Below, piece after piece: positions 18,363-19,440 of a DNA stretch of 64,000 nt. Position 1 is the stretch's first letter. Every line of letters starts with the position of its first letter. This stretch comes from Lishizhenia tianjinensis (GTDB lineage: Bacteria; Bacteroidota; Bacteroidia; Flavobacteriales_D; Crocinitomicaceae): positions 744,001-808,000 of the forward strand of contig NZ_FPAS01000001.1 of NCBI RefSeq assembly GCF_900116425.1, given 5' to 3'. The translations under genes and the position numbers were made by a program. The notes below the pieces were generated by a model. The model did no database searches and was not told the origin of the DNA. It was given only the letters and a program-made list of their open reading frames with translations.

Positions 18363-18440
18363 GGTCTGGTAGTTCAGCTTGGTTAGAATACATGCCTGTC
18401 ACGCATGGGGTCGCGGGTTCGAGTCCCGTCCAGACCGCCA
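18363..18440 (+). tRNA. tRNA-Asp (GTC), copy 1
   Basis: The acceptor stem GGTCTGG pairs with CCAGACC. The anticodon arm CATGC-CTGTCAC-GCATG puts GTC in the middle of the loop. The T arm is GCGGG-TTCGAGT-CCCGT. Discriminator G is followed by CCA in the DNA (18438-18440). Confidence 0.95.
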
Positions 18441-18479: not shown

Positions 18480-18554
18480 GGTCTGGTAGTTCAGCTTGGT
18501 TAGAATACATGCCTGTCACGCATGGGGTCGCGGGTTCGAGTCCCGTCCAGACCG
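18480..18554 (+). tRNA. tRNA-Asp (GTC), copy 2
   Basis: Identical over all 75 bases to copy 1, with a 39-base spacer between them; here the CCA is not encoded (CAA follows). The two are co-transcribed from one promoter. Confidence 0.95.
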
Positions 18555-18557
18555 CAA

Positions 18558-18588
18558 AAAAGCTTCAAGTTTTCTTGGAGCTTTTTTC
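18558..18588 (+). terminator. Terminator after the tRNA-Asp genes
   Basis: The stem AAGCTTCAAG (18560-18569) / CTTGGAGCTT (18574-18583) with one G-U pair is followed by a T-run. Confidence 0.75.
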
Positions 18589-18607
18589 ATTTTTAAAAAT
18601 ATCCCTT

Positions 18608-18668
18608 TATGGCTGAAGGGCTAGAGAGTGTCGAAGAGTATCAATTTCTTCGGCACTTTTGTTTTTTA
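18608..18668 (+). repeat. Divergent first copy of repeat part B, terminator-like
   Basis: Carries the words TATGGCTGA and GAGTATCAATTTCTTCGG shared with the later B copies. Here the stem is still good: GTGTCGAAGA / TCTTCGGCAC followed by TTTTGTTTTTT, so this may be the parental terminator from which the other copies decayed. Confidence 0.55.
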
Positions 18669-18680
18669 TATAATCTCATT

Positions 18681-18835
18681 TTGGTTAAAACACATACCTG
18701 TCATCCCCAAGCATCTTGGGGACGAGTTCGAGTCCCGTCAAGACCGCCAAAAAAATACGCCTCTATGGCTGACGGAATAATCCCCAAGGCACTTGGGGAC
18801 TGAGAGTATCAATTTCTTCGGGATTTTTGTTTTTA
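18681..18835 (+). repeat. tRNA-Asp-derived hairpin repeat, copy 1 (parts A and B)
   Basis: Part A (18681-18748) is a tRNA-Asp remnant from the D loop (TTGGTTA) through CTGTCA, then a perfect hairpin TCCCCAAG-CAT-CTTGGGGA (18704-18722) in place of the anticodon 3' side and variable loop, then the T arm and acceptor 3' end with CCA. Part B (18754-18835) begins AATACGCCTCTATGGCTG, has a second hairpin TCCCCAAG-GCA-CTTGGGGA (18781-18799) and ends with the decayed terminator. Confidence 0.8.
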
Positions 18836-18903
18836 TAAAGTTTTTCCCACCTTACTCTACCACATACACTTCATTTCATTTACGATCATTCGCTCAATAT
18901 TTA

Positions 18904-19058
18904 GGCGGTAGAATACATGCCTGTCATCCCCAAGCATCTTGGGGACGAGTTCGAGTCCCGTCCAGACCGCCAAGAAAATACGCCTCTATGGCTGGAGGAA
19001 TAATCCCCAAGGCACTTGGGGACTGAGAGTATCAATTTCTTCTGCAATTTTGTTTTTA
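18904..19058 (+). repeat. tRNA-Asp-derived hairpin repeat, copy 2 (parts A and B)
   Basis: Same order as copy 1 and nearly identical: tRNA remnant 18904-18972 with the hairpin at 18927-18945, part B 18977-19058 with the hairpin at 19004-19022. The acceptor 3' strand CCAGACC matches the real tRNA better than copy 1 does. Confidence 0.8.
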
Positions 19059-19110
19059 AAACCGGAACATAGTTCGTAACTTTTTAATCAATCACTTAAT
19101 CTAACATAAA

Positions 19111-19371
19111 ATGAAACATTTTGTTTATATCCTATATTCAGAACTGCACGACAAGTATTACAAAGGATATTCAACAGCTCCTTACAAAAGACTCGAACAA
19201 CATAATACGGGAGAGAGTCGATATACGCGTACCTTTCTTCCATGGATAATAGTGTACCTAGAATTGTTACCCGATAAAACTTCAGCTTTAAAGCGTGAAA
19301 AATCATTAAAAAAATACGCTAAAAATCAGATTAAGGCGTTGATGTTATCTCCCAAAAAAAATTTGAATTAG
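19111..19371 (+). CDS. GIY-YIG nuclease family protein
   Basis: This encodes 86 residues, the usual length of the stand-alone GIY-YIG (YhbQ-like) family. The signature is FVYILYSELHDKYYKGYS (here VYI...YKG), followed by R-L-x-x-H-N-T-G (RLEQHNTGE) with the catalytic Arg position, and the acidic segment ALKREKSLKKYAKNQ that supplies the metal-binding Glu. It is expected to cut DNA with a divalent metal. Its stop codon (TAG at 19369-19371) lies on the first bases of a tRNA-Asp-derived repeat, and two more copies lie upstream, so the gene is embedded in the repeat cluster. Host role unknown. Confidence 0.9.
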   Translation: MKHFVYILYSELHDKYYKGYSTAPYKRLEQHNTGESRYTRTFLPWIIVYLELLPDKTSALKREKSLKKYAKNQIKALMLSPKKNLN

Positions 19372-19440
19372 TTAGAATACATGCCTGTAATCCCCAAGGC
19401 ACTTGGGGACTGAGAGTATCAATTCCTTCGGGATTTTAGT
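19371..19440 (+). repeat. tRNA-Asp-derived hairpin repeat, copy 3 (A/B fusion)
   Basis: GTTAGAATACATGCCTGT of the tRNA runs straight into the B-type hairpin TCCCCAAG-GCA-CTTGGGGA (19391-19409) and the B tail GAGAGTATCAATTCCTTCGGG. This is what a deletion between the A and B hairpins of one unit would give. Confidence 0.75.

Follow-up and report, generated by a model that had tools for sequence, protein, structure and literature searches.

What is a gene for a small nuclease doing among broken copies of a tRNA gene? The question is raised by a stretch of 64,000 nucleotides from Lishizhenia tianjinensis, a member of the Crocinitomicaceae (the window: contig NZ_FPAS01000001.1, positions 744,001 to 808,000; all features located in it below are on its forward strand). 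The locus begins with two intact tRNA-Asp(gtc) genes called by ARAGORN (18363–18440 and 18480–18555). CCA is encoded in the DNA after the first gene and is absent after the second. A group I intron in the tRNA anticodon loop is ruled out, as both genes are uninterrupted. Directly 3′ of the second gene stands a hairpin that resembles an intrinsic terminator (18556–18587, from inverted repeats and alignment), and beyond it lies a palindrome-free region (18595–18665; ATGGCTG...GTATCAA..., with a stem and a T-run) that was delimited with repeat families, alignment and counterparts in relatives. The first-pass annotation, whose part B of the repeats corresponds to this region (region B below), had described an intact tRNA-Asp pair followed by three tRNA-Asp-derived copies with a perfect hairpin, and both ARAGORN and the repeat and hairpin searches agree.

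Displaced copy 1 (18681–18748) runs from the D-loop to the 3′ end of the acceptor, and a palindrome replaces its anticodon 3′ side. Displaced copy 2 (18904–18971) was recognized from repeats and alignment, and copy 3 (19368–19440) is a shortened one that lies 3′ of the GIY-YIG gene and includes that gene's stop codon. The two full repeats (18686–18838 and 18909–19061) are 153 nt long and 93% identical, and each consists of a 5′-truncated tRNA-Asp and then the region found behind the tRNA. Within the copies are five perfect hairpins, TCCCCAAGnnnCTTGGGGA, built as TCCCCAAG-N3-CTTGGGGA: TCCCCAAG-CAT-CTTGGGGA in displaced tRNA copy 1 (18704–18722), TCCCCAAG-GCA-CTTGGGGA in region B of copy 1 (18781–18799), and one each in displaced tRNA copy 2 (18927–18945), in region B of copy 2 (19004–19022) and in copy 3 (19391–19409). 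The hairpins at 18781–18799 and 19004–19022 are the second ones that had been noticed in part B of each full unit. By eye, copy 3 takes its left flank from the tRNA palindrome, whereas its loop and right flank match the B palindrome, and it looks as though a deletion had removed what lay between these two hairpins. The terminator-like hairpin of 18556–18587 is seen behind none of the displaced tRNA-Asp copies in the window and thus was probably brought in by the element. The hairpin and B had both been proposed as sequences to seek in relatives. Of 150 genomes of the family, 15 contain the hairpin in the form TCCCCAAN5TTGGGGA; comparison identifies B as native sequence behind tRNA-Asp, and its counterpart in related genomes does not have this hairpin.

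Direct repeats of a tRNA 3′ end that flank a gene resemble att sites, and the locus could be read as what is left of a genomic island of the integrase type that used the tRNA for attachment, with the nuclease as cargo. The only open reading frames of at least 60 aa between the window repeats are the GIY-YIG gene and three of 64–77 aa without a Pfam match, with no site-specific recombinase among them by Pfam. This content, together with a layout that is short and alike at many isotypes, makes an island remnant highly improbable. The same Pfam search of these reading frames found no Y1 HUH transposase gene between the window palindromes.

The GIY-YIG gene (19111–19371; PF01541, E 1.8e-14) lies between copies 2 and 3, and its TAG is inside copy 3, as had been noted. 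It encodes 86 aa. The catalytic residues of the GIY-YIG domain are Tyr, Tyr, Arg and Glu; in the window protein Y6, Y17, R27 and E63 are invariant across 34 diverse aligned sequences, and both domain and residues place it in the GIY-YIG superfamily. By sequence, the nearest structures are the UPF0213 entries 1ywl (E 7.8e-8) and 1zg2 (E 2.8e-6). The AlphaFold model (pLDDT 92.2) has as its nearest folds, in order, 1zg2, 1ywl, Slx1 and then the I-TevI catalytic domain, with E <0.001 for the first only. The gene is freestanding: it lies outside both intact tRNA genes and adjoins its presumed target, a pattern that is general in the survey described below. In several nuclease clades the reading frame runs on into the tRNA copy, which encodes the C-terminal tail; in the Val type that is common, translation stops in the loop of the palindrome.

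This layout is seen a second time in the genome, at tRNA-Val. There, on contig C3, the genome's other small GIY-YIG gene, whose product is 37% identical to the window protein, follows two tandem tRNA-Val(tac) genes and two tRNA-Val-derived copies and precedes a further copy, and in these copies the anticodon arm is TCCCGAT-GCA-ATCGGGA. A 53-nt stretch made of the tRNA-Val 3′ end and terminator occurs exactly twice, after the second intact tRNA and after the gene. Repeats around GIY-YIG genes at other tRNAs, which the first-pass annotation had named as support for its idea, are therefore found at tRNA-Val here and at many tRNAs elsewhere in Bacteroidota. The arrangement is probably best explained as a minimal mobile element of the freestanding homing endonuclease type that has a tRNA gene as its target and would consist of a terminator, a gene for a GIY-YIG nuclease of 80–105 aa, and a 5′-truncated tRNA copy with a palindromic anticodon arm.

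The association with tRNA genes was surveyed across the family, in which 82 of 150 genomes contain a match to the window protein. The 89 loci surveyed (29 returned by the search of other genomes and 60 fetched, the window's own genome being set aside) leave out other, mostly lower-scoring matches among those listed. A same-strand tRNA ends at most 700 nt upstream of the gene in 58 of these loci, at 22–125 nt in the 52 where it lies within 150 nt and at 151–700 nt in 6; a tRNA lies at most 40 nt downstream in another 6. Eight loci are at contig edges, and 17 fall outside every tRNA class despite enough flank. All 60 tRNAs adjacent to the gene are on the same strand and none on the opposite one, and a control gene from the window, encoding a LuxR-type regulator, has no tRNA at any of 29 loci. 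The 17 unclassified loci include L081 and L107, with a tRNA 133 and 90 nt downstream; these Leu loci are mirrored, with a degenerate copy, the gene and then the intact tRNA. Others, such as L046 and L123, carry tRNA pieces by eye. Four more (L060, L096, L097 and L131, from genomes G049, G026 and G055) are in a transposase context: in L131 the GIY-YIG gene splits an IS91-type transposase gene, with PF14319 and PF04986 on opposite sides by Pfam, and the context of the remaining three was judged from flanks similar to those of L131. Here, members of the nuclease family occupy a target other than a tRNA. In L096, L097 and L131 the ends carry short inverted repeats, CCCCGTTAGAAAT / ATTTCTAACGGGG.

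These data bear on another account, in which the protein is a cellular nuclease that is co-transcribed with tRNAs and serves their processing, surveillance or dosage, the hairpin copies being RNA with a regulatory or structural role. A tRNA-linked host gene fits the same-strand order of tRNA and gene (median distance 56.5 nt in the 52 close cases) and the maintenance of perfect stems while loops vary. It is nevertheless quite unlikely, given that the gene is patchily present, that copies are decayed or truncated, that the isotype differs between clades and relatives have the same tRNA without the gene, and that some members lie within the IS91-type transposase gene where no tRNA is called.

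How far the putative mobile element extends was followed with an Asp-clade alignment, which retrieved 68 loci from named records. Among the 45 loci of named Bacteroidota, an upstream same-strand tRNA lies within 150 nt in 20 and within 1300 nt in 10 more, and the rest are 8 contig edges and 7 loci without an upstream tRNA. The 30 tRNAs are Asp(gtc) in 29 cases and Ser(gct) in one, and the loci include members of the Flavobacteriaceae, Owenweeksiaceae, Crocinitomicaceae, Cryomorphaceae, Weeksellaceae, Chitinophagaceae, Sphingobacteriaceae and Saprospiraceae. The 19 loci from other named phyla comprise 14 without an upstream tRNA (one of them, L176, has a tRNA 131 nt downstream), 4 at edges and a single one with tRNA-Asp, in a MAG labelled Kuenenia that is perhaps misbinned; the 4 loci without a phylum comprise 3 with no tRNA and 1 edge. 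The association with tRNA is therefore typical of the Bacteroidota members in this sample and not of small GIY-YIG genes generally. The first-pass annotation had also proposed rRNA loci as sites, an extension that found no support: no rRNA is near the gene among Rfam matches (20 loci at the gathering threshold and 20 at E 0.3). With the Asp-clade alignment, no relative was confirmed in viral contigs; 21 phage records have less than 60% identity.

The displaced tRNA ends recur as well. Of 84 loci, 63 have behind the gene a remnant of the locus's own tRNA 3′ end, scored as a match to its 3′ 40 nt above shuffles, compared with 2 of 74 far windows; in 21 none is detected by this measure. The 84 loci include the genome's own two and the Kuenenia MAG, and 9 further loci had insufficient sequence; the window itself falls below the threshold because copy 3 lacks the tRNA 3′ half. 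Across 79 loci, matches of at least 85% to the own tRNA cover the acceptor 3′ strand in 52%, the T arm in 35%, the terminator in 33%, the D arm in 10%, and the anticodon arm and acceptor 5′ strand in 1% each (shuffled, 0). Thus, the remnants retain the 3′ part and almost never the anticodon arm. In the 61-nt window before the T arm, 34 of 67 remnants have a perfect hairpin with arms of at least 7; dinucleotide shuffles give 1.05 (maximum 4), and the surroundings of intact tRNAs give 5 of 67.

The sequence of this hairpin varies with the tRNA. When arms of at least 6 are counted, 17 of 22 hairpins at tRNA-Asp start with TCCCCAA; at tRNA-Met, 8 of 15 start with TCCGTC and 2 with TCCGCC; at tRNA-Val, 4 of 5 contain CCCGAT; at tRNA-Leu, both start with TCCCGAT; at tRNA-Asn, 3 of 4 start with TCCCG; and the rest differ. 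Fourteen distinct Asp-type copies share one junction, TCA|TCCCCAA...TTGGGGA|CG, with a variable loop. The eighth pair is G-C in 8 of them and C-G in 3, and the other 3 have a 4-nt loop on seven pairs. These copies were chosen by tRNA-flank pattern, perfect hairpin and TCCCC, so that the shared start is partly built in; the junction, loop and eighth pair are independent of the selection pattern. Comparison across loci suggests that the palindrome in the anticodon arm is often typical of its nuclease clade.

The nuclease clades in turn follow the isotype. In a tree of 90 proteins (the genome's own two included and one duplicate removed, with many forks unresolved), the 68 labelled rows have 14 isotype states and require 16 changes. 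With the 22 unlabelled rows as a state of their own, 33 changes are required compared with 58.2 when shuffled, and none of 200 shuffles is as low, a score that is helped by near-copies. Each protein clade thus appears largely to keep to one tRNA isotype. The Asp-clade tree is too poorly resolved (3 of 38 branches starred) to establish transfer between families.

Beyond these loci, the window palindrome pattern has 25 sites at no more than 2 mismatches in its own genome, and the reversed pattern has none. The Asp-type palindrome is found in 10 of the 11 genomes that have an Asp-clade gene (a score of at least 74 bits against the window protein), compared with 5 of 139 others (Fisher p 3e-11), and 25 of its 45 sites lie within 700 nt of such a gene; the other 20 lie elsewhere, 8 of them in the window's genome. 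The Met-type palindrome, present in 28 of 80 genomes, is dispersed, with up to 16 sites in one genome, and it goes less closely with the Met-clade gene (11 of 15 genomes with the gene and 17 of 65 without, the presence of the gene being taken from examined loci only). Palindromes therefore accompany elements and are not confined to them. Near some contig ends (G045:C13:106-495 and G118:C241:58-437), Met- and Asp-type palindromes recur every 110–130 nt, a series that suggests longer tandem arrays that break assemblies. In the window's genome, Asp-like palindromes also lie within stems of Flavo-1-like intergenic elements (L008, L014-L016, L025, L028, L031 and others), which are below the Rfam threshold or alike only by eye. 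As an identification of these hairpin stems, Flavo-1 RNA was rejected, with at most 35.9 bits against a gathering score of 42. REP-like mobile hairpins were likewise rejected as the whole explanation, since junction and arms track the nuclease clade.

If the unit moves, sites without it are expected, and they were sought at two tRNA genes of a related genus. The tRNA-Val site was matched in 12 of 14 genomes and its tRNA called in 11, of which 6 are occupied, 1 is decayed (G087) and 4 have no gene. The occupied sites are those of G095, G029 and G058, of G079 and G132 with another nuclease type, and of G009 with a third type and no remnant. One tRNA-Val site (L204-L211) is thus held by different GIY-YIG types within one genus, and elements may replace one another there. 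A second copy of terminator and gene start in G079 and G132, 96–97% identical over 88–102 nt, is a decayed older unit. The gene-free sites of G117 and G045 have no tRNA remnant within 1.5 kb; those of G069 and G103 carry a scar, with the remnant 233 nt and 1224 nt downstream. Upstream, G103 shares a kilobase of flank at 74%, G045 two pieces, and G117 and G069 about 250 nt around the tRNA. At tRNA-Asp, among 13 genomes of the genus with the tRNA called, 3 are occupied (G117, G069 and G111), 9 are free of gene and remnant, and G132 is ambiguous, its site being at a contig end, and carries the gene once more on a piece where no tRNA is called. Here mostly about 150 nt upstream are shared and the outer flanks mostly are not, no tRNA-Asp remnant is seen in occupied G117 and G069, and the counterpart of the window's region B appears palindrome-free. 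Sites without the gene therefore exist (tRNA-Val, 4 of 11; tRNA-Asp, 9 of 13), but two of the four at tRNA-Val are scarred and flanks are incompletely shared. A pristine empty allele with fully shared flank was not found among the 11 tRNA-Val and 13 tRNA-Asp genomes.

The closest view of an insertion comes from gene-free G103 (L209) and occupied G095 (L204). When the two are aligned, the tRNA of G103 with its terminator and flank matches the displaced copy and what follows it in G095 (191 of 234 aligned bases identical); within the tRNA the anticodon arm is changed, besides single substitutions and the 5′ end. The native 3′ end thus appears to be displaced downstream, as in mORF-like elements. 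In G095 the terminator type of G103 stands behind the displaced tRNA copy, and the terminator after the intact tRNA is of a different type that is common to G029, G058, G079, G132 and G087. This second terminator looks imported, and the comparison of the two aligned loci favours insertion with displacement; within G095, import is indistinguishable from duplication because the tRNA 3′ halves of its intact and displaced copies are identical. As a pristine empty allele G103 is ruled out by a tRNA-end scar 1.2 kb on and a DUF6000 gene. In this genome (L209, 2549-4135), two copies of the tRNA-Val end with its terminator and flank stand 1.2 kb apart on either side of the DUF6000 gene, and the far copy fits G095 about as well as the near one. 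Repeats of this kind can therefore exist without a nuclease gene, whether lost or never there.

G103 also suits another explanation, by which unequal crossing-over multiplied tRNA genes and their neighbourhood around an old neighbouring gene and independent REP-like palindromes later settled in the spare copies. The gene between the repeats of G103 does not encode a nuclease, tandem copies of tRNA and gene are common, Met-type palindromes are dispersed, and similar palindromes occur in the Flavo-1-like stems of the window's genome; in addition, passages of PMC13096335 report that SegB drives segmental amplification of a tRNA region. Conversely, in several families palindrome sequence and tRNA junction go with the clade of the nuclease, and few genomes without an Asp-clade gene have the Asp type; moreover, the intact tRNA of G095 is followed by a terminator that other occupied genomes share and that is unlike the one after the displaced copy. 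Crossing-over as the origin of the whole arrangement is therefore judged unlikely.

For the homing-type element, what comparison of genomes brings out is recurrent isotype-matched placement, an intact tRNA, 3′-end remnants, presence or absence of the unit, and tandem accumulation. A mobile or recombining unit that uses the tRNA end, as first suggested, gains support from the recurrent layout and the gene-free sites. That the nuclease drives the movement is what its conserved catalytic residues, the match of clade and isotype, and the precedents point to. Speaking against this reading are the 21 loci with no detected remnant, the 17 that fall outside every tRNA class, the scars in gene-free G103 and G069, and the palindromes that lie away from any element. 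In the proposed route, the nuclease would cut the tRNA gene, and repair with element DNA across the tRNA 3′ half would restore a complete tRNA with the element's terminator upstream, the old tRNA 3′ end being pushed downstream. Tandem arrays could arise from repeated insertion or from unequal recombination between tRNA copies. The best guess for the palindrome is that it would remove the cut site from the element's tRNA copy and prevent that copy from acting as a tRNA; it may also serve as a binding site for the nuclease or as a branched-DNA site. The intact tRNA beside the gene should remain open to cutting; the model therefore requires that expression be tight or the tRNA protected, and no sign of such protection of the neighbouring tRNA from cutting was found in this sequence analysis.

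A more ambitious reading, offered tentatively and with rather more doubt than belief, is that these are autonomous bacterial elements of a few hundred base pairs that form a previously undescribed class, each clade having its own isotype and palindrome. They would use the palindrome for entry into the tRNA gene, as branched or cruciform DNA because of the Slx1-like fold, leave a working tRNA and build tandem arrays, and the dispersed palindromes would be their non-autonomous offspring. The family of elements itself is real, widespread and, as far as the literature search reaches, undescribed: titles and the starts of abstracts of open-licence PMC papers contain no description of isotype-matched clades, tRNA displacement or an anticodon-arm palindrome. 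If the homing-type reading is true, tRNA genes are colonized, besides by integrases, by homing-type nucleases barely above one domain in size, and entry into an essential gene is solved by leaving the tRNA intact. It would also account for tRNA fragments, tandem tRNAs and small GIY-YIG genes behind tRNAs in Bacteroidota. The isotype-matched clades offer a natural set for how a single GIY-YIG domain reads DNA, and the paired palindromes a testable link among Slx1-like branched-DNA nucleases, hairpins and mobility.

Several known systems share parts of this arrangement. By sequence and fold, the closest proteins are the UPF0213 and Slx1-type GIY-YIG domains (PDB 1ywl, 1zg2 and 6seh); unlike the Bacteroidota elements, 18 of the 19 small GIY-YIG loci of other named phyla have no upstream tRNA (4 of them at contig edges). 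In REP/RAYT systems, a nuclease-type gene is flanked by palindromes and more palindromes lie elsewhere in the genome. The present loci also have a nuclease gene with flanking palindromes and others elsewhere in the genome, but the unit is without a Y1 transposase and its palindromes are inside tRNA copies. HNH homing genes in tRNA clusters are described in passages of a Mycobacterium paper (PMC6582537). For phages T4 and T6, the corresponding passages of PMC13096335 implicate SegB in breaking sequences that contain tRNAs and state that it promotes the amplification of a segment made of tRNA and segB, with no favoured tRNA isotype. As described there, SegB is likewise encoded by a freestanding GIY-YIG gene next to tRNA genes. 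Unlike phage SegB as it appears in those passages, the elements described here are in bacterial chromosomes, encode single-domain proteins, fall into isotype-tied clades and have displaced tRNA copies with a clade-typical palindrome. Passages of PMC3630166 describe mORFs of Allomyces and Glomus mitochondria (hybrids of atp6, atp9, cox2 and nad3), which encode LAGLIDADG endonucleases or, in atp9, a GIY-YIG endonuclease; an mORF brings a replacement 3′ end to the invaded gene, and the native 3′ end is displaced downstream (PMC3630166). On that description, the two arrangements share an endonuclease ORF and the displaced native 3′ end of an invaded gene (PMC3630166). Whereas mORFs, as portrayed there, invade mitochondrial protein genes, the genes invaded here would be bacterial tRNA genes; a palindrome replaces the anticodon arm, and the tRNA 3′ part is indistinguishable from that of the resident gene.
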